IMG/VR virus record: IMGVR_UViG_3300009034_000199
Location: 1-24,740 of that record
Reading direction: 5' to 3' (one strand)
Length of the DNA: 24,740 nucleotides
Origin: a virus
The notes beneath the pieces were generated by a model, which saw only the letters and a list, made by a program, of their open reading frames with translations, did no database searches and had not been told where the DNA came from. The translations under genes were made by a program, and so were the position numbers. The number at the start of each line of letters is the position of its first letter. Position 1 is the first letter of the stretch. Below, piece after piece: positions 6,052-24,594 of the stretch.

Positions 6052-6894
6052 CTATGGAAGCGGTTCAGTGATTGTATATAAAATTTTTACCCCTCCAAGT
6101 TTAACATCATCTGTCTCATCATTATTATTGATTAAACAAGATAATCTGTAAGAATATGTTGTATTATCTATTACTGGATTAGTTATTGTTGAATCAGCTT
6201 TAGTTCCCCATGCAGTTGCAATATTCTCGTCAAGACAATCCGCCATGTCGGATCCTGCTGTTCCTTGCATATCACATCTTTGCAGAAGTACAGATATAAC
6301 TCCCGTATTATCCTTTTGATAATAATACATCTGTACTTCGGTTACAGTGACTCCATTAGGTAAATGAACTTGGGTAGAATATAGTTGCGAAGCAAATCCA
6401 GCATCAACATTAGATAAAGAACCATCAGTTCCAATAACTCTATCAACATTTGCAGCGTAATCTACTCCCTCAAATGCATCTCCCGAAATTGATAAAGTTC
6501 TTGTAACAGCATGAGTAAATTTTATTTCCTTACCATTACCATCATTATCTATTTCAACAACATCTGCATTTGAACTTGCATGATCCTGTTCTGCCAAAAT
6601 TAAAGCCCCAGATGTCTGATTCCCCTGATTGGAGATAATAACTGGAGTTCCAGATGTATTTATTGCTCCAACTTCTAATACTGCATCAGTGGTTGCAAGC
6701 GAAACAATTTTTAAAGAACTTTTATCATTGACTTGGTAGATAGTTAATCCGTCAACTGCACTTGCAGGTGTTATGGTCTGGCCTCCGAGATCAGTCCGAA
6801 TCATCATCGCATCATTCTCACCAAGGGCATCCATTTGCTGATAAGTTAATAAACCTTTGTAAATAAATGTGGCAGTGAGATCAGTATATGCCAT
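6052..6894 (-). CDS. Probable receptor-binding or tail-tip protein, 280 aa
   Basis: A Ser/Thr/Asn-rich beta protein at the end of the tail module. Residues 1-30 (AYTDLTATFIYKGLLTYQQM) look like an attachment segment. Residues 35-125 contain short strands and a repeat-like array, and the C-terminal half (about 150-280) resembles a jelly-roll with YSTQVHLPNGVTVTEVQMYY and final strand VKLGGVKILYTITE. Genes directly upstream of the endolysin and after hub proteins often encode host-binding tip proteins. The family is not recognised, so the role comes from position and composition. The GGAGAG ribosome site is well placed before ATG 6894. Confidence 0.6.
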   Translation of the reverse strand: MAYTDLTATFIYKGLLTYQQMDALGENDAMMIRTDLGGQTITPASAVDGLTIYQVNDKSSLKIVSLATTDAVLEVGAINTSGTPVIISNQGNQTSGALILAEQDHASSNADVVEIDNDGNGKEIKFTHAVTRTLSISGDAFEGVDYAANVDRVIGTDGSLSNVDAGFASQLYSTQVHLPNGVTVTEVQMYYYQKDNTGVISVLLQRCDMQGTAGSDMADCLDENIATAWGTKADSTITNPVIDNTTYSYRLSCLINNNDETDDVKLGGVKILYTITEPLP

Positions 6895-14815: not shown

Positions 14816-15511
14816 CTACCTCTGCCATTCCAAATGTGTCAATCTATAAAGACCCAAAGCACCATAAATGGTATCAAATTCTTTTTGAGCAAATGCTGCA
14901 TCCAATTCTTTCGGGAACATAAAATCAAGATATAATTTCAATAAATCTTTTGACCGTGAAGCCCATATATCACTCTTGTCTCTGTACGCAACCGCATTGG
15001 CTCCGATAGTTGAATTAGATGTATTACCATATTTTCTTGCAATTGCTCCTGCACATAATGAAGAAGCTAAGTTACAAAATGCTCCGAAGTCTTTTTCGTA
15101 CACAGTAGAAGAAGAATCGTCTATTGTATGAGGAACAGTATAGTTAGCCCGGATAGTTCCAGAACTTGGAGTTGTTCTTAAAAATCTCAGATATTTTGCA
15201 CTTGCAGTTTCGTATATCATCCATTCTTCTCTGGGTATCATTGTTGGACTTTGATTACCCGTTGGATATTCCACATCTTGTATGTCCGAGAATCCATCTA
15301 CCCAAGATGCAAAATTACCTGTACTAAGTTCATAATCGTAACTTCCACTTGCAGAAACATCAGCCGTTTTTGTCAAAGGTCTATGCTTGGAATAAATTTC
15401 AAGAGCATCTTCTTGAATAAAAGAATTAATATCACCAGATGTAATATTAAGTTCAGCATCTTTAAGTATTCTATCAACAGCAGCATTAAAAGTCGTTATC
15501 GTTGTTGTCAT
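14816..15511 (-). CDS. Head-tail adaptor (gp6-like connector), 231 aa
   Basis: Connector that docks under the portal. It opens with TTITTFNAAVDRILKDAELN followed by SFIQEDALEIYSKHRPL, the helical start of adaptor proteins. SYDYELSTGNFASWVDGFSD and IQDVEYPTGNQSPTMIPREE resemble a widespread adaptor family with a beta insertion. Helices at 130-200 (CNLASSLCAGAIARKYGNTS, then DLLKLYLDFMFPKEL) complete the bundle. Its start overlaps the stop of the small membrane protein upstream (TAATG). Confidence 0.8.
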   Translation of the reverse strand: MTTTITTFNAAVDRILKDAELNITSGDINSFIQEDALEIYSKHRPLTKTADVSASGSYDYELSTGNFASWVDGFSDIQDVEYPTGNQSPTMIPREEWMIYETASAKYLRFLRTTPSSGTIRANYTVPHTIDDSSSTVYEKDFGAFCNLASSLCAGAIARKYGNTSNSTIGANAVAYRDKSDIWASRSKDLLKLYLDFMFPKELDAAFAQKEFDTIYGALGLYRLTHLEWQR

Positions 15512-15771
15512 TATTTTTTTCTTTGAGTTAAAATTCCACTCATAACTTTTCCATCTGGAACAGTATAATTAAAAGACCTTGCTTCAGGTGGAGTTACTCT
15601 AACATAAGATTTTTCTGCTTCTTCATCTATAACTATTATTCTATCTCCAGCTTTTAAATCAAATCTAAAATCAGTTGTAGTTCTTGTTCGTTTCTGAACT
15701 CCTGCATAAACTACTAAACCAATAATTAATAGAATTGAAATTACAAAATAAATCTCAAAAAATCTTTTCAT
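15511..15771 (-). CDS. Small membrane-anchored protein, 86 aa
   Basis: A single N-terminal transmembrane helix (residues 5-25, FEIYFVISILLIIGLVVYAG) is followed by a short basic segment and a beta domain: DFRFDLKAGDRIIVIDEEAE, then YVRVTPPEARSFNYTVPDG. The orientation and basic region favour a cytoplasmic N terminus with the domain in the periplasm. It lies in the membrane-protein cluster between head and neck genes, so it may be a spanin, a superinfection exclusion factor, or part of an unknown envelope complex. No family recognised. Confidence 0.65.
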   Translation of the reverse strand: MKRFFEIYFVISILLIIGLVVYAGVQKRTRTTTDFRFDLKAGDRIIVIDEEAEKSYVRVTPPEARSFNYTVPDGKVMSGILTQRKK

Positions 15772-15780
15772 TACATCCCC

Positions 15781-16023
15781 CTAATCTACTATTAATTTTA
15801 TTACTACTCCGATTATAGCTGCAAAAATTACAATACTACCAGTTATCAATTTATTCGATATATTCTTCAACCAACTTATGTCAGTTTTCAATCCATTATA
15901 TGTACTAATCGTTCTCTTGATTTCGGTTATATCCTTTCCTATATTATAAAGCGTAGTTTTGATTGTTGGGATATCCTCCAAAATCTTCCCTATCTGTTCT
16001 TCTACCAATTTTCTTTTTGTCAT
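15781..16023 (-). CDS. Coiled-coil with C-terminal TM, XhlA-like, 80 aa
   Basis: Residues 5-55 form a coiled coil (VEEQIGKILEDIPTIKTTLY, then KDITEIKRTISTYN). One transmembrane helix, about 59-78 (LITGSIVIFAAIIGVVIKLI), ends the protein. This topology matches the XhlA family, whose members work with a holin in lysis, though I cannot be sure of homology. The ATG overlaps the stop of the 47-aa membrane protein upstream (ATGA), so the two are coupled and probably act together. It lies far from the endolysin and holin genes at 4962-5815. Confidence 0.7.
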   Translation of the reverse strand: MTKRKLVEEQIGKILEDIPTIKTTLYNIGKDITEIKRTISTYNGLKTDISWLKNISNKLITGSIVIFAAIIGVVIKLIVD

Positions 16024-16163
16024 CCAAAAATCTCCTCTACAATTCTATCTGTTATTCTAATTACTATTTTAAAAATAAATTTACTTCCAACTCCGAGACC
16101 AAAACAAACAAGACAAGACAGACAAAACAAAAACCATTGTACTCCTGTGATATTATCGAGCAT
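16020..16163 (-). CDS. 47-aa single-span membrane protein
   Basis: A complete small gene: ATG 16163, TGA at 16020, with an AGGAGG site that lies inside the 3' end of the lipoprotein gene upstream (overlap 11 nt). The transmembrane segment is about residues 9-28 (QWFLFCLSCLVCFGLGVGSK), rich in Cys, with a basic/acidic amphipathic C terminus (IVIRITDRIVEEIFG). Translational coupling with the XhlA-like gene downstream (ATGA) suggests a holin-like or regulatory partner. No family recognised. Confidence 0.65.
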   Translation of the reverse strand: MLDNITGVQWFLFCLSCLVCFGLGVGSKFIFKIVIRITDRIVEEIFG

Positions 16164-16485
16164 GAAAATATAATCCTCCTAATTTTTTATCATGCCAAAG
16201 TTCATGTCCAAGATTTCCAAAATCGGGTAATGGATTTCCGTTAATATCATATTCGCCAGTATAAGTAGTATATATTGTATCTCCCACTCTTACCCCTTTA
16301 ATTCTTTTATTTAAATGTTTAAATTCTTCATTTAGTTTTTCTTTATCCATTACTATAATTGTAATAGGCTTATCTATTTCATATATCCTTGTAGCAATCG
16401 GAGCCGTTGTTGCACAACCATTCAATGCAATAAAAAATATTAGAGTTAATAATATTAGTGATAAGAGTATCAATAGTTTCTTCAT
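16153..16485 (-). CDS. Lipoprotein with HExxH motif, 110 aa
   Basis: A signal peptide of about 23 residues ends in the lipobox LNGC (Cys24), so the mature protein is lipid-anchored. The C terminus holds GHELWH (His94, Glu95, His98) with a third His at 108 (KKLGGLYFHAR). This is the zinc-peptidase signature HExxH, with a distant third ligand rather than the metzincin spacing. Between them are a strand and helix (ITIIVMDKEKLNEEFKHL) and YTGEYDINGNPLPDFGN. Small phage proteins with a G-H-E-x-x-H near the end occur in other phage genomes without assigned function. The ATG overlaps the previous stop (ATGA) and has GGAGC upstream. Confidence 0.75.
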   Translation of the reverse strand: MKKLLILLSLILLTLIFFIALNGCATTAPIATRIYEIDKPITIIVMDKEKLNEEFKHLNKRIKGVRVGDTIYTTYTGEYDINGNPLPDFGNLGHELWHDKKLGGLYFHAR

Positions 16486-16745
16486 TCTTGCTCCATAATC
16501 TCAATCAATTCCTTGAGAGTGATGTCGGGATTAAATTTTATAGCTATTTCAATATCTTCATAACAATAATCCATCTCTTTATATTTCCTTTCGAGTTGCT
16601 CCACTTTGGTTTTCAATTCTTTTATCTCGGCATCTTGAGATAATTCTTTAATAACATGTTTATCCCCATTTGTCGCACACCCTACAAGAAACAGTAAAAG
16701 AATTGGTAATATTTTTTTCATAAAATTAATCAGTGGAATATACAC
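16482..16745 (-). CDS. Small lipoprotein, 87 aa
   Basis: Lipobox LVGC (Cys23 from the GTG start at 16745). An ATG at 16721, 8 codons later, would give a more classical signal (KKILPILLLFLVGC) but lacks a ribosome site, whereas the GTG has AGGAG 10 nt upstream. The mature part is a charged coiled coil (VIKELSQDAEIKELKTKVEQ) ending in an acidic helix. Size and layout resemble outer-membrane spanins, but there is no matching inner-membrane spanin embedded or overlapping in another frame. It overlaps the 574-aa gene upstream and the HExxH lipoprotein downstream. Confidence 0.7.
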   Translation of the reverse strand: MYIPLINFMKKILPILLLFLVGCATNGDKHVIKELSQDAEIKELKTKVEQLERKYKEMDYCYEDIEIAIKFNPDITLKELIEIMEQE

Positions 16746-18450
16746 TAAAATTCATCTCCTCAATCAGTATATTGCCAGTTCCTGTCAAATCTTTGACATA
16801 GACCGAAAGCGTATCACCCTGGACAAGCGAAACACAACCACTCAAGGGGAAAGTTACAACCGTATCTTTAGTTACTGTAACTTTACTTCTTGTTCTACCT
16901 TCAGGAATCACTGCACCATTCTTAAATAAAGCAAACATAAAAGTTTCTGTAGAACCATCATCTGTTGCGGATATATTGATATTAACAAAAAATCTTTTCT
17001 CGGCTGTATAATTGTAAGTAAGTACGCCATTAGCAGCAGAGAACCAACTTATGCAACCAGTATTCACTGTCAATGTTCCATCTACAATGTAATATACATT
17101 TTGACTTGCAATCTGTGTAACATTGGTATTAGTTGAAATATAAGCTTCTGCAAGAGTTCCAGAGGATATGAGTACTACACCTTCAACTTGATTGCCATTA
17201 AAATCCACATTCTGATTAAAATTTACTTCTGTATTTATTTCTAAAGTTGGTGAATGTGAGATTAATTCAGCAAAGTTTCCAGTATTTGCATAGACAGTAG
17301 TTTCGCAAGTTAGAAAGCTACCAACATTCAATGTATCTGCAATGGCAACAGAAGAACTCATATCTACATGACCACCAGCGAAGACAGATATTCTGTTTTG
17401 ATTATTGGTTCTGATATAAAATGGATGATTAGAATTCGTTCCAACAAGTCCTAAAGAATCAGATGACAATAATTTAACTAAACAATTATTGGTAGTATCT
17501 AAAGCAAAAAATGTAGGGTCAGCTGCTTTTGTTACTGTTATATTATCCGTAGTTTTGAAAGTGCCTGTACTAAATCCGTCTGCCATTGAAGCGTGTTGGA
17601 AGGTAGAGATACCATTAACGTCTAAATTTTTGATAATAATTGTATTGGAAGCTATGGTTACATCTCTATTGGCAGCACAGGTAATAGCAGCTCCACCACT
17701 TGCTCGTATTGTGGTAGCACCACCACTTCTTACTGTTACACTATTAACAGAATTATCGCCTAACCAAAGATTATTACTTCCATCTAACCAAACCATTTGT
17801 TTTGACGCACCAGCTGCATTTTTAAATCTTATGTCAGTATTATTTGAAAAAACCCAACTACCTGAACTATACCCAGTTGCAAAAGAACCATGTTGGAGTG
17901 TTGACCTGTCTGCAACATCTAAAGCTCCCCCAATATTAGCCCAATTTACTACAGTCAAAGTTCCCACGTCAACACCGAAAGGCATAGTCCATCCTTGAGT
18001 TAGATAACTGTAAGTTGTAATTGCTATTCCGGTTTCATCTTTATCTCCAATAAGAACATACTTCCAATCATCATCACCTATTTTTATTGTATCAATATCA
18101 TTCTGTGCTATGGACAAACCTTGTAAAAGTCCTACTTCAAGTCTTATGACCTCATCACCAAAAAAGATTCGTGTCGCATCACCAACATTGTCTTTGTGGT
18201 AAATATAACGTCCTACATGAGCATCACTGGCAAAATAAGCAATGCCAGAACTATACACAACTTCTCCGAAAGTAGCCCCACCTGCACCGTAATAATTTGT
18301 GGCAAGGATATCATAAGCTCCCATATCCAAATTTTGTCTTGCTCCGGAATAAGGAACTTTTGTATTATCTCTTAAACTACCAATTCCTTGTCCTGAAACA
18401 ATAGTGGTAAAGCATAAAAATAAAATAAAAAATATTAATATTTTTTTCAT
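16726..18450 (-). CDS. Exported fibre-like protein with C1q-like C terminus, 574 aa
   Basis: A Sec signal peptide (KKILIFFILFLCFTTIVSG, cleavage near residue 20-22) begins an otherwise fibre-like protein, which is unusual for a tailed phage. The body is beta-rich with an internal duplication: STLQHGSFATGYSSG (183-197) and STFQHASMADGFSTG (282-296), each followed by a strand-rich unit of about 45 residues. The last 90 residues (KRFFVNINISATDDGSTETF, then GCVSLVQGDTLSVYVKDLT) match C1q/TNF-type jelly-rolls used as trimeric tips in head and tail fibres. The ribosome site AAGGAG before ATG 18450 is clear. Whether it goes into virions or to the host surface cannot be told here. Confidence 0.75.
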   Translation of the reverse strand: MKKILIFFILFLCFTTIVSGQGIGSLRDNTKVPYSGARQNLDMGAYDILATNYYGAGGATFGEVVYSSGIAYFASDAHVGRYIYHKDNVGDATRIFFGDEVIRLEVGLLQGLSIAQNDIDTIKIGDDDWKYVLIGDKDETGIAITTYSYLTQGWTMPFGVDVGTLTVVNWANIGGALDVADRSTLQHGSFATGYSSGSWVFSNNTDIRFKNAAGASKQMVWLDGSNNLWLGDNSVNSVTVRSGGATTIRASGGAAITCAANRDVTIASNTIIIKNLDVNGISTFQHASMADGFSTGTFKTTDNITVTKAADPTFFALDTTNNCLVKLLSSDSLGLVGTNSNHPFYIRTNNQNRISVFAGGHVDMSSSVAIADTLNVGSFLTCETTVYANTGNFAELISHSPTLEINTEVNFNQNVDFNGNQVEGVVLISSGTLAEAYISTNTNVTQIASQNVYYIVDGTLTVNTGCISWFSAANGVLTYNYTAEKRFFVNINISATDDGSTETFMFALFKNGAVIPEGRTRSKVTVTKDTVVTFPLSGCVSLVQGDTLSVYVKDLTGTGNILIEEMNFSVYSTD

Positions 18451-18463
18451 ATTTTACTCCTTG

Positions 18464-19111
18464 TTATTTATCCGTTTCTATCTTCCAATGAAAAGTAGCC
18501 CCTGCAACCAAATCCGTGACAGTGAAAGTTGTTGCAACTGCATAATCAAATTTCCCTCTTACCCACAATCCATCAGTGAGATAGTCAGCACCGCCTATCC
18601 TATTATTCTTTATAGTACAATAAGTTGAAGTATCCCCATTATTGAAATAATAGAAAAAATATCTTTTAACCTTATCGGTTACCGTGATAGTTTGGCTTGT
18701 TGCACTTGTTACCATTCCTGACGTACCACTTGAAATGAATATCGTTTGGTCTTCATAAACAGGGATGGGATAGTTCATGTAAATTGTTGGTCTCTGTAAT
18801 AATGCTTGATTACTTTCTATATTTGATAAAGTGGAAGCAGCGGTTGCATCGGGATAATCAGTTGGAAAATTAATAATATAAGAAGTTGGAAATCTCAATA
18901 ACTCTAATTGAGTTGCTGTCAAATAAAATGTAGCACCAGCACTCATAACTTTCAATGTTCCAGAGGTGGGATCATAAACTCCATTCCAAATATCTTCCAC
19001 TGCATAATCTCCAGTGGTAGTTGTTAGAGTTGAACCCACTGTATCCGTCCAAGCAAAGATACTTATTGGTAAACAAAAAAGAATTAAAAATAAAATTAAA
19101 AGTTTTTTCAT
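18464..19111 (-). CDS. Exported beta-rich protein, 215 aa
   Basis: A signal peptide (KKLLILFLILFCLPISIFA, cleavage after residue 20) precedes a Thr/Ser-rich beta protein. Visible segments: GDYAVEDIWNGVYDPTSGTL, a membrane-like turn, PTSYIINFPTDYPDATAAST, and a C-terminal strand region TFTVTDLVAGATFHWKIETD resembling a jelly-roll edge. The family is not recognised. It is adjacent to and apparently co-translated with the other exported fibre-like protein (13-nt gap), so the two may form one exported structure. The GGAGGAAG site before ATG 19111 is good. Confidence 0.7.
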   Translation of the reverse strand: MKKLLILFLILFCLPISIFAWTDTVGSTLTTTTGDYAVEDIWNGVYDPTSGTLKVMSAGATFYLTATQLELLRFPTSYIINFPTDYPDATAASTLSNIESNQALLQRPTIYMNYPIPVYEDQTIFISSGTSGMVTSATSQTITVTDKVKRYFFYYFNNGDTSTYCTIKNNRIGGADYLTDGLWVRGKFDYAVATTFTVTDLVAGATFHWKIETDK

Positions 19112-19124
19112 TATACTTCCTCCA

Positions 19125-19496
19125 TTACTTTGTTTCGATGTTTGCGCTAAATGTTATTTTTGGTGTTGAAGTTCCAGCAAGCGTATAAGCTATTCTTAAC
19201 CAGCCAGAAAAATCTACCTGTCTATGTCCACCAAATATTTTAGGTGGAGTACCTATATTGGCATTCGTTATCAAATCTTCTTGATAAACCGTTCTCCATT
19301 TGTAATTATCTATTGCGGGATCTACTGCGGAACATTGTAAAGAAACCTGAAGTGTGGGTGCTCCCGATTTGGCAGTTATATAAATTACCGTCATGGCATA
19401 CTCGGCAGTTCTGGCAGGAATAGCGGTTGAATATCCAGCTGCGGTAGCACCTCTATTGGACGAGGCAAGAACCTGATAATTATTAAAATACTTCAT
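19125..19496 (-). CDS. Small beta-sandwich virion protein, 123 aa
   Basis: No signal peptide. Strands throughout: NYQVLASSNRGATAAGYS, EYAMTVIYITAKSGAPTLQV, a WRTVYQEDLI turn, and YTLAGTSTPKITFSANIET at the end. The pattern (a small sandwich with a conserved Y-x-x-x-Y-I-T) is frequent in phage decoration proteins following the capsid gene. Its position in the capsid region before the exported proteins fits a decoration or head-fibre base. Not formally recognised. Confidence 0.6.
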   Translation of the reverse strand: MKYFNNYQVLASSNRGATAAGYSTAIPARTAEYAMTVIYITAKSGAPTLQVSLQCSAVDPAIDNYKWRTVYQEDLITNANIGTPPKIFGGHRQVDFSGWLRIAYTLAGTSTPKITFSANIETK

Positions 19497-19586: not shown

Positions 19587-19835
19587 TTATTTCTTTTTCT
19601 TTTTTTTCTTTTTCTTTTTCGGCTCTGGTTTCTTTTCTTCCTTCTCTTCTTTCTTTTCGGATTCTTTTTTGGAAGAAGGAACTATCGGCTCGGATTTAAC
19701 TATCTCATTCAAATCAACATCTTCCTCTACTTCAACATCCCACCCAGTAGCAGTCTTGGTTATCTTAATAGGTTCTATGTTTCTCGCTTCTACTTTTTTT
19801 AAATCTGATTCATTCTCAATCTTAAAAATTCTCAT
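19587..19835 (-). CDS. Small protein with poly-lysine tail, 82 aa
   Basis: I place the start at ATG 19835: the GGAGG site lies 5 nt upstream, and a TTG 4 codons earlier overlaps that site. The first 45 residues (RIFKIENESDLKKVEARNIE, then ITKTATGWDVEVEEDVDLNE) form a small alpha/beta unit resembling the N terminus of some capsid-associated small proteins. From about residue 50 on, the protein is a low-complexity EKKEEKEEKKPEPKK segment ending in ten lysines, encoded by A-rich DNA. It may bind DNA or an acidic virion surface. A terminator lies directly upstream. Confidence 0.65.
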   Translation of the reverse strand: MRIFKIENESDLKKVEARNIEPIKITKTATGWDVEVEEDVDLNEIVKSEPIVPSSKKESEKKEEKEEKKPEPKKKKKKKKKK

Positions 19836-19861
19836 GCTTTCCTCCAATTGGGTATCTTTTT

Positions 19862-21024: not shown

Positions 21025-23613
21025 TTATATAGATGTTGCAAAGTTTGCGTAAATCCCTCTATTGTCAATTATCTCTAAGCCATATTCATATCTCACTTTG
21101 TAACGAATTGTATCATTCGTAAATACCTGCCCAAGTGTCGGTTGATCCTGGACTACAAGAAGAGGAGTTCTTTGATTATCGACATAACCAATCTCAATCG
21201 TTTCACCATCAGCTTTATCAATCACTAAGAACCAATAATATTGGTAGGTTGAGCCCTTAATTGTCGGAGCGTAAATTGTAGTATATACTCCCTTATGAAC
21301 ATTATCCTCAGCCATGTTTGTCGGATTCTTGTCGGAATTTGTTATCGAACGAACTTTCGCTCTTGTCTTTAATCCATGAATTATGAACTTTCCATCCAGC
21401 CCCATTTCCTCATCGTCATTCGAAGCAGTCGAAATCTCATATTTCGTTGTAGCATCTGCCTGTGTGGTAATTGCAGCGAAAGTTAATTTGGTTGCGGTAT
21501 TACTTGCTATAAGAGACATCTGACCAGCTCCTGTTCCGTAAACCAACCGTACATATCGACCTGCCCACTCATTTACATCCCAGGATTTGGTCGAATCCGA
21601 TAAAGTTGTGGTTGAATAATCTCCATCAGCTGTTCCAGCATCTTCGGAAGCCCCTCTTTCTTTCTGCGCAGCTATACCATCAGAAGCATCTGTCAAATGA
21701 TCGTAGCTAAAAGCATTGGTCGAATAGTTGTTAAATATAGTTGAAAATACTGTCGAATTTGTTGGAGTATATGTACCATTCGCTAATAGCAAAGCCATCA
21801 CATCTCTTTCTAATGTTTTCCTTGCTGCTTTTACAACTTTGCTCGGAATCTTTTTAATGTAACCCAAATCATCATTCTTAATTGTTGCCCTCGAAACTGA
21901 CACGAGCCCACCCTTTGTTCCAGGTGTGTAGGTTGCTTCCTCATCATGTGGTTCAAAAAGGTCAGCATAAGCTCCCGCAGTTACAGTCGGTAGAGTTGAC
22001 CATCCACCCCACTTCACTCTCTCTTGCTGTTTGAAATTTGTAACTGGAACTTCTGTTACTATCGGAGCAAATATAAATGGTTTCACTTTGAACTCTTTCG
22101 TTATCCTTTTTGTCATTGAAGTATTCAGAATGTAAGAAAAATCGGCTGTGGTAATTGCTTCCTTCAAGCTACCCATCTTGGTTCTCTTACCAACCCTACC
22201 AGTAACATTCGGATCTTCGGGATGTACTGCTCGGTAAGCTTCCAGAATACTATTGAACCCACCGTGAACTGATTCCTTTAGCTTATCGGGTATTTTTGCT
22301 TGGTCATCTACCATTAAATCCATGGCAGCCTGAATTTTGTCAGCTTCATCAGAAATAACATCAATATCATCCTTCACATCACCCAGTCCATTTATCTCAC
22401 CGCTTTCAGAAAGTTTACCAAGAATCTCTTTCTCTTCCTTCATTACATTTTCAAGTTCCTTTGCTTCAAAAACTTTGTCTTGGAATCTTTTTGATATTTT
22501 ATCCTTAACTAACTGAGGTAACTTGCTTCCGGCAAGTTGTTCTTTTAGTGTGGCAGCACATTCTTTCTTTTGTGTATTCTCTTTCATTGTCTCAACATCT
22601 TTTTTCATTTTATCAATTTCAGTCATCTTTGCTCTCTCTTCCTCAAGTTTCTTTTTATCCGCTGCTTCTTTTACTTTCTTGTCTGCTTCCTCTTTCTCCT
22701 TCGCTTCCCTCGTTTTCTTTTGCTCTTCACTTTCTTTGGCAGCAGGATATTTATAAGCTTTCATCTTTGCTCTTAAATCCTTAAGTAACTTAACTGCCTC
22801 AGCTTTCTTGTCTCCCTCAACTGCTTTAATAATCTCATCTATCATTGCAGATGCAAAAGGAGCGATTGCTTCAGCGAGTTTCTCATCTTTCGGTGGAAAC
22901 TCTTCGCATTCAACTAATCCCTTGATTAGCTCAAACTTCTGCTCTTCTGTAATCTCATCAGGATTAATTCCCTCAATCAAACTTTCCTTGATTTGTTTTG
23001 CCCATTTGTACAACTCTTTTAAAAAATTCATCTCGTTTTCCTCCATATAAAATTTGCTTGCCAATAGTCTTTGAAATTTACCACCGGCAGCAGCATGACT
23101 TACAAGAGTAATTTCATCAATGCTCTTGATTTCATTAACTTTTATTACTTCTTTACCTTCCTCAAATCCTTTCTCTACATCTCCACCACCATCTATACTA
23201 AAACCAAGCAAGGCTTTCTTGCCATATTCCCAAGCCTCTTTCAATAAACTCATTAACCATTTTGCAGTATCAACGATATGAAATCTGGCAAGGATTCCTT
23301 CCTTGGTACGCCCATCCGCATCTTCAAAAGTTCCATAATGGATATTGTCATACCATCCGACAAGATTCTTTAATGTACCTTCAGGGAAAACTTTGCGGAC
23401 AGCTTCAGGCATATGATTCCAAATTTTACCCTTGAATTCATACGCATAAGCCTTAGCTTTCTCAAAAAGCGGTATTGCCTTTTTAAGAACTTCGGGAGGA
23501 TAGTATTTATTATTCAGACTTCTTCCAGCCTGAATTAATACTACATCCCATTCCTTTCCTTCTTTATCTTTTGATTCAATCAGATGTGATGGTGAGAAAA
23601 TTTTCTTTAACAA
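21025..23613 (-). CDS. Prohead protease-scaffold-major capsid fusion, 862 aa
   Basis: One gene encodes what is usually three. On the 862-aa form: residues 1-185 are a prohead-protease-like domain (GRSLNNKYYPPEVLKK; probable catalytic His112 in LARFHIVDT and Ser139 in LLGFSIDGGGD; then IDEITLVSHAAAGG). Residues 190-445 are a charged coiled coil (scaffold/delta-domain). Residues 450-862 are an HK97-fold capsid protein with AYRAVHPEDPNVTG, PVTNFKQQERVKWGGWSTLP, GGLVSVSRATIKNDD and IPSKVVKAARKTLERDV. A small domain is inserted at about 665-727 (YGTGAGQMSLIASNTATKL). I start it at TTG 23613, 7 nt after AAGGAG; the longer TTG at 23652 lies in a hairpin. An internal start at 23031 can give scaffold-capsid without protease. 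Confidence 0.85.
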   Translation of the reverse strand: MLKKIFSPSHLIESKDKEGKEWDVVLIQAGRSLNNKYYPPEVLKKAIPLFEKAKAYAYEFKGKIWNHMPEAVRKVFPEGTLKNLVGWYDNIHYGTFEDADGRTKEGILARFHIVDTAKWLMSLLKEAWEYGKKALLGFSIDGGGDVEKGFEEGKEVIKVNEIKSIDEITLVSHAAAGGKFQRLLASKFYMEENEMNFLKELYKWAKQIKESLIEGINPDEITEEQKFELIKGLVECEEFPPKDEKLAEAIAPFASAMIDEIIKAVEGDKKAEAVKLLKDLRAKMKAYKYPAAKESEEQKKTREAKEKEEADKKVKEAADKKKLEEERAKMTEIDKMKKDVETMKENTQKKECAATLKEQLAGSKLPQLVKDKISKRFQDKVFEAKELENVMKEEKEILGKLSESGEINGLGDVKDDIDVISDEADKIQAAMDLMVDDQAKIPDKLKESVHGGFNSILEAYRAVHPEDPNVTGRVGKRTKMGSLKEAITTADFSYILNTSMTKRITKEFKVKPFIFAPIVTEVPVTNFKQQERVKWGGWSTLPTVTAGAYADLFEPHDEEATYTPGTKGGLVSVSRATIKNDDLGYIKKIPSKVVKAARKTLERDVMALLLANGTYTPTNSTVFSTIFNNYSTNAFSYDHLTDASDGIAAQKERGASEDAGTADGDYSTTTLSDSTKSWDVNEWAGRYVRLVYGTGAGQMSLIASNTATKLTFAAITTQADATTKYEISTASNDDEEMGLDGKFIIHGLKTRAKVRSITNSDKNPTNMAEDNVHKGVYTTIYAPTIKGSTYQYYWFLVIDKADGETIEIGYVDNQRTPLLVVQDQPTLGQVFTNDTIRYKVRYEYGLEIIDNRGIYANFATSI
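23029..23044 (-). promoter_or_regulatory. Internal ribosome site and start at the scaffold boundary
   Basis: GGAGG (23044-23040) lies 8 nt before an in-frame ATG (23031-23029), exactly where the protease domain ends and the scaffold (MNFLKELYKWAKQIKESL) begins. A nested product would lack the protease, as for lambda C/Nu3 and Mu I/Z. Confidence 0.65.
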
Positions 23614-23634
23614 AAAAAGACTCCTTAAAAATAA

Positions 23635-23720
23635 AATTGATTTTGAAATCAATTCATTTCTAATCAGAGTCTTTGGCTACGTTGGGGTTTCTAATTTCAA
23701 ACCACTAATTTGGATTAGTG
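23635..23720 (-). promoter_or_regulatory. Structured 5' leader of the capsid gene
   Basis: Two perfect hairpins lie between the promoter and the ribosome site: CACTAAT/ATTAGTG (23703-23720, 4-nt loop) and AATTGATTT/AAATCAATT (23635-23654, 2-nt spacer). The second is followed by a T-rich stretch and sits 8 nt before the AAGGAG of the 23613 start. The leader has no ORF of its own. It could be an attenuator or an mRNA-stabilising structure. Confidence 0.5.
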
Positions 23721-23817: not shown

Positions 23818-24594
23818 CTATTTCTTATTTAGAATCAACTTGTCATTTTCCGTCAATATAAGATTATAGTTAGAATTTTTAAACTTTATTTCAACGGGAA
23901 GAGAAGTATCGGAAAAGTCAATAAATTCTGGCATTGCAGTTGAATCAAAATTATATAAATCTTCTTTTATTTTTTCACCTGGCAACTTACCTTTCGAGAA
24001 AATCCAGATAGGAGAATCTGGGGACTCCCTTCGCATTATATAATATCCCTTCAATAATTTTCCATTGAATTTGAAAGAAGAAAACAAATCAGTCTCTTCT
24101 ATTAATTCTACAGTTCCCGAATCCTTTATTTCAATGTAAGCCGGAATTCTTTCATTGGGATTACCGTAAGGCATTCCACCTTTATTTCCAGTGTAAAGAT
24201 TTTCCCATTGATCAATCCATGCCTTCTGTCCATCTTTGAACTTTGCAAAAGTGGGCTTTACGGTCAAAGCATTTTTATTCTCCCTCTGAACTACATAAAC
24301 ATTATCTGGATGAGATTCTATTACCGTAACAGGAGTAAGTCTGCTATCTTTTGCTGGCACGGAACCTTCCCATTCCATCCAATTCCTAAACGATTCACCA
24401 TTTGGAGTTTGTATATTTAAAGTCTTCTTCACTGCATTCGTTTCTTCCTGTTTAGTCGGGTCCCCATAAAACTTACCTGAAAAATTCCATCTATCTAAAA
24501 CATTCTTACCCGAATCAATCAATAATTCATATGCCGAATCTGATGCAGGTAAACCACGAACTACCTTTGCTCCCATCCACCAACGAAATCTCAA
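23818..24594 (-). CDS. 5'-truncated phage protein with LigD phosphoesterase-like C terminus
   Basis: About 258 codons are open. The only upstream start candidate (TTG 24594) has no ribosome site and lies in the junction with unrelated DNA, so the true 5' end is missing. Residues 15-45 (LPASDSAYELLIDSGKNVLD) are phage-like. The C-terminal part, about 165-215 (GTVELIEETDLFSSFKFNGK, then LLKGYYIMRRESPDSPIWIF, then SKGKLPG), resembles the second half of the LigD 3'-phosphoesterase domain (G-T-V-E-x-x-E...F-x-G-K-L-x-G-x-x-x-x-R...W-x-x-x-K). I cannot see the full set of metal-binding His, so activity is uncertain. It may be the tail end of a head-module protein (protease/packaging accessory) rather than a repair enzyme. 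Confidence 0.55.
   Translation of the reverse strand: MRFRWWMGAKVVRGLPASDSAYELLIDSGKNVLDRWNFSGKFYGDPTKQEETNAVKKTLNIQTPNGESFRNWMEWEGSVPAKDSRLTPVTVIESHPDNVYVVQRENKNALTVKPTFAKFKDGQKAWIDQWENLYTGNKGGMPYGNPNERIPAYIEIKDSGTVELIEETDLFSSFKFNGKLLKGYYIMRRESPDSPIWIFSKGKLPGEKIKEDLYNFDSTAMPEFIDFSDTSLPVEIKFKNSNYNLILTENDKLILNKK

Follow-up and report, generated by a model that had tools for sequence, protein, structure and literature searches.

Our evidence suggests that, in a group of uncultured tailed phages, part of the 'fibre' kit crosses the host membrane ahead of lysis, so that not all of it is built in the cytoplasm, where the virions of tailed phages are thought to be completed. The window, i.e., the whole stretch of DNA analyzed here, is a 24.7-kb uncultured virus record with its structural genes on the (-) strand. 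In this record and its relatives (ten contigs in total), a block consisting mostly of signal-peptide genes separates the capsid module from the neck genes. Sec export of the block proteins is strongly supported, and our confidence in this prediction is high. Inside the structural cluster, a conserved and exchangeable set of exported proteins of fibre, lectin and esterase types would represent either a new route of virion finishing or a counterpart of Cor/Llp exclusion that is directed at glycans.

The first-pass annotation had singled out two Sec-exported, fibre-like proteins within the structural cluster. One is a 215-aa protein encoded by the core gene of the block (18464..19111, (-)), which has a conserved NFPTDYPD motif and a C-terminal beta-sandwich; its signal peptide (about 19052-19111, (-)) is MKKLLILFLILFCLPISIFA, followed by WTDT. 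The other is a 574-aa fibre-like protein (16726..18450, (-)), whose signal peptide (about 18391-18450, (-)) is MKKILIFFILFLCFTTIVSG, with QGIG following and the predicted cut between VSG and Q. Both N-termini have the textbook n/h/c layout, and the ATG starts of the two genes are preceded by GGAGG and AAGGAG, which are good ribosome-binding sites. Both open reading frames exist as described and their signal peptides were confirmed by layout, ribosome-binding sites and the block-wide enrichment given below, but the exported set is larger than a pair, as two lipoprotein-like ORFs follow directly. These are an 87-aa ORF (16482-16745, (-); likely start ATG 16721) with a lipobox LVGC, a probable coiled coil and a weak, below-cut-off similarity to the Lpp/OprI alanine zipper, and a 110-aa ORF (16153-16485, (-)) with a lipobox ALNGC. 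Neither was significantly similar to the PHROG Cor family (phrog_1119; E 0.24 and 0.72). Three small membrane ORFs then lead to the neck genes: a 47-aa single-span protein (16020..16163, (-)) with a homologue in contig G014; an 80-aa protein (15781..16023, (-)) with a C-terminal membrane segment, weakly holin/XhlA-like (best E 0.0096); and an 86-aa N-terminally anchored protein (15511..15771, (-)), the conserved block-closing gene in most relatives. The ectodomain of the last protein (15511-15771) is conserved and had no convincing match to a known family. The boundaries are formed by two proteins without signal peptides, a 123-aa protein (19125..19496, (-)) on the upstream side in relatives and a 231-aa probable neck protein (14816..15511, (-)) on the downstream side.

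The 215-aa sequence alone retrieved four viral contigs, each of which is syntenic with the window. Further searches with alignments of TerL, the capsid protein and the 123-aa boundary gene extended the set to the ten contigs (the window, G001-G006, G010, G011 and G014), in which the block is covered in whole or in part; several are fragments, and the block of G004 is split over contig ends. Whole contigs were analyzed with our own gene caller and our own signal-peptide heuristic, which is distinct from SignalP. In every relative, signal-peptide genes occur between the 123-aa and 231-aa genes, two to five of them large (one in the distant G011). Related phages were also inspected for signal peptides on the same gene, a check that the first-pass annotation had proposed, and the heuristic caller found the signal peptide kept in 9/9 syntenic members of the 215-aa family. 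The cleavage context, [AS] before the cut and W[TI]D after it, is conserved in most of these members, and a signal peptide is retained throughout, while the middle of the protein may be absent or contain up to 600 aa of repeats.

Among genes of at least 80 aa in the same contigs, the heuristic called 38 of 43 exported in the block versus 26 of 402 elsewhere (Fisher p about 3e-32), the latter count including some false calls (e.g., a 470-aa tail protein of G005) as well as some additional exported fibre genes of G006 and G011. Chance hydrophobic N-termini are ruled out by this contrast. Both the caller and inspection found n/h/c signal peptides with small residues at -3/-1. In addition, Gln is often the first residue after the predicted cut: the pattern [AGSC]Q occurs within residues 14-28 of 12 of the 36 large exported proteins, compared with 4.4 expected from their own mature regions.

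An eleventh contig, L072, was found by a search with the motif D.LGNH.A.K.LNMN, which is common to the mature N-termini of exported proteins in G002, G004, G005 and G014, the remainders of these proteins being unrelated. The L072 capsid is of the HK97 type (PF05065), and its other head and neck genes have no or only short similarity. Between the capsid and neck genes, L072 carries block homologues with signal peptides retained: a 526-aa member of the 215-aa family (35%), a LamG protein and two proteins that align with G003, one of 228 aa (57% over 129 aa) and one of 141 aa (68%). Since an unrelated capsid is accompanied by block homologues at the same place, the block is an exchangeable module. 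That signal peptides are retained at nine or more diverged loci, and also on an unrelated phage backbone, strongly favors export over simple cytoplasmic assembly, and the departure from such assembly that had been suspected from the window is borne out in this respect. A methyltransferase-like gene without a signal peptide (PF13489; L072:7410-7913) is also located inside the exported block of L072. In another contig, L078, an NFPADYPD motif occurs in a protein without a signal peptide, beside a portal-like gene, so that a motif of this type is by itself no proof of export.

The domains that reside together in the block, tail-fibre repeats among them, are typical of fibres, lectins and depolymerases. 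A LamG/ConA-type lectin domain (PF13385) is present in six block proteins, in G001, G002, G003, G004, G010 and L072, all with signal peptides, and a further exported LamG (PF13385) protein of G011 is encoded outside the block. Right-handed beta-helices in G003 and G014, a NosD-type helix in G010 and a GDSL esterase in one block protein of G005 are likewise found in proteins with signal peptides. The G001 block also contains a 160-aa protein without a signal peptide (L002:11197-11679) that matches PF18022 (Ricin-type beta-trefoil lectin C-terminal domain; E=3e-6). Two extra signal-peptide gene clusters, including fibre-repeat proteins, were observed in G006 (L030-L032): the first occupies the tail-end fibre position, and the second lies upstream of TerL.

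The 574-aa protein had no direct homologue in a whole-protein search of phages and viral contigs, no above-threshold match in Pfam, PHROG or NCBIfam, and nothing significant in a PDB sequence search; neither it nor the 215-aa protein matched a tail fibre family. One of its regions resembles the exported 891-aa beta-helix protein of G010 (36% over 73 aa), and its N-terminus is similar to that of an exported G004 protein. Its beta-rich C-terminal 140 aa (16726..17148, (-)) had been annotated as a C1q-like jelly-roll, a claim that we could not confirm: there was no family or PDB match, and the AF2 model of residues 435-574, with predicted beta strands, had a pLDDT of 44. Support for a C1q/cerebellin-like end comes from one distant relative only, the predicted protein at the same locus in G011 (L041), and is near the cut-off (PF00386 at E=1.5e-4, 1.3 bits under it; collagen X and cerebellin chains at E about 0.003). 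The C-terminus of the 215-aa protein (pLDDT 72) is a predicted beta-sandwich similar to many jelly-rolls, e.g., Bacillus Ena appendages, STIV A223, YomS and phage capsid/turret proteins, and no single fold match stood out among the jelly-rolls compared.

From the computed signal peptides, synteny, module exchange and domain types, we infer co-expression, cleavage, location and a masking or trimming role for the exported proteins. In the reading that we tentatively prefer (probability about 0.45), this group of uncultured tailed phages would keep a swappable 'exported fibre/lectin' module between the capsid and neck genes. Module proteins would be read together with structural genes, pass the host inner membrane by Sec and then lose their signal peptides, and a few would become lipoproteins. 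The mature proteins would act on envelope or matrix glycans outside the cytoplasm, where, in late infection and at lysis, lectin, fibre or esterase domains may mask or trim the surface receptors used by the phage itself; alternatively, they may be released at lysis. The likely benefit would be less superinfection and fewer progeny lost on debris. A role at the host surface or after release (mask, adhesin or depolymerase) fits the predicted domains of the block, and the domain types point to a glycan as the probable target. In favor of glycan masking, the window has a separate candidate tail-end fibre of 280 aa without a signal peptide (6052..6894, (-)), in contrast to the exported block; it was assigned by position and conservation only and has no family match. 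Against it, the two large proteins of the window match no lectin or enzyme family, folded fibres would have to cross the outer membrane, if the host has one, and the head-neck region is the usual place of head fibre and decoration genes.

The location of the block within the structural cluster, adjoining the head genes, would also suit virion fibres made via the periplasm, i.e., exported, cleaved, folded outside and joined to heads or tails at lysis. This main rival strikes us as somewhat unlikely, though several similarities point to it. The motif D.LGNH.A.K.LNMN is kept in front of a variable remainder (beta-helix, GDSL and others), which is the classical layout of fibres. A 679-aa protein of G006 matches the tail fiber family phrog_9942 (E=8e-8) and has a repeat in common with the tail fibre of Roseobacter phage CRP-1, a protein that lacks a signal peptide, although fibre-type repeats occur in secreted bacterial proteins too. 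The C-terminal region of the exported 891-aa protein of G010 resembles a tail-module protein without a signal peptide (29%, E=2e-5), and the 215-aa protein has a weak match to the GTA/phage head spike fibre NF048003 (17.8 bits, under the curated cut-off of 36). However, the LamG-only proteins, in which a signal peptide and a lectin take up most of the 231-269 aa and leave limited space for a domain that docks to the virion, have no docking part in common, the tail-end fibre candidate is encoded separately, and to our knowledge no tailed phage assembles fibres via export. On balance, we consider it doubtful that tailed phages export genuine virion fibres by Sec from an interchangeable cassette and complete the particles at lysis, outside the cytoplasm.

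Stand-alone lectins and long repeat proteins could instead serve as secreted adhesins or matrix/biofilm factors that aid spread by altering the aggregation of infected cells and debris, rather than by receptor masking. We found no specific evidence for this and judge it improbable. The Phage_integrase family had no match in eight contigs, possibly fragments, and lysogenic conversion was set aside on this basis; the phages are probably virulent, which would leave little time for biofilm effects. Least probable is that the hydrophobic N-termini are uncleaved anchors, virion-internal segments or pieces removed by a phage prohead protease, and not Sec signals. False signal-peptide calls on phage capsid proteins can arise in this way (PMC10367356), but the n/h/c layout, the lipoboxes, the conserved cleavage sites and Gln at +1 argue against such an origin here, and such N-termini are mostly absent from the neighboring capsid, neck and tail proteins.

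SD-like sites were found in 74-94% of genes, a frequency unusual for Bacteroidota, so that a typical Bacteroidota host is disfavored despite the excess of Gln at +1. The latter feature is the Bacteroidota 'Q-rule', a mark of secreted proteins (PMC5837995). Scans of genome contigs for a host with the capsid and TerL alignments returned nothing. TerL matches in phages were all below 60% identity, the top ones at 23-27% and from many hosts. Microcystis phage Mae-JY22, whose capsid is the closest among named relatives (30%, 72% of the query), has no such exported block. With regard to a moron with its own promoter, promoter-like sites were not in excess (25 versus 27.3 in shuffles).

The closest analogue in purpose may be Cor/Llp of phages T1 and T5, exported envelope proteins that block the receptor of their own phage and spare progeny from debris (PMC13164509). 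Cor/Llp act on protein receptors, whereas glycans are proposed for the block; they are single small lipoproteins, with Cor near the tail-fibre cluster, whereas the block is a multi-gene set of fibre and lectin types between the capsid and neck genes. The available text on Porphyromonas phages (proposed Nixviridae; PMC10367356) similarly reports phage genes with Sec signal peptides and Gln at +1, for which a change of the host surface was proposed. As given there, their function is not known and the phages insert into tRNA genes, and that text describes no conserved, exchangeable fibre/lectin block at the capsid-neck junction. Phage tail fibres, tailspikes and head spikes have fibre repeats and beta-helix, GDSL, C1q-like and LamG domains in common with the block, but are normally made without a signal peptide. 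Benler et al. (PMC6199706) regarded a lack of signal peptides as an argument for a phage origin. A literature phrase search on phage secretomes found nothing relevant.

The genes surrounding the block in the window include a tape measure gene, an Amidase_3 endolysin without a signal peptide and a neck protein matching phrog_5 (E=3e-11). The backbone marker is a major head protein of the fused capsid/protease type (21025..23652, (-); PHROG head maturation protease, E=1e-37). An ORF of 82-86 aa at 19587-19847 ends in a lysine run, PKKKKKKKKKK, derived from a homopolymer tract. In several relatives, a gene of ~1,200-1,640 aa is located upstream of the capsid gene (L022-L023 in G001), and the window ORF at 23818-24594 corresponds to the C-terminal part of this gene.
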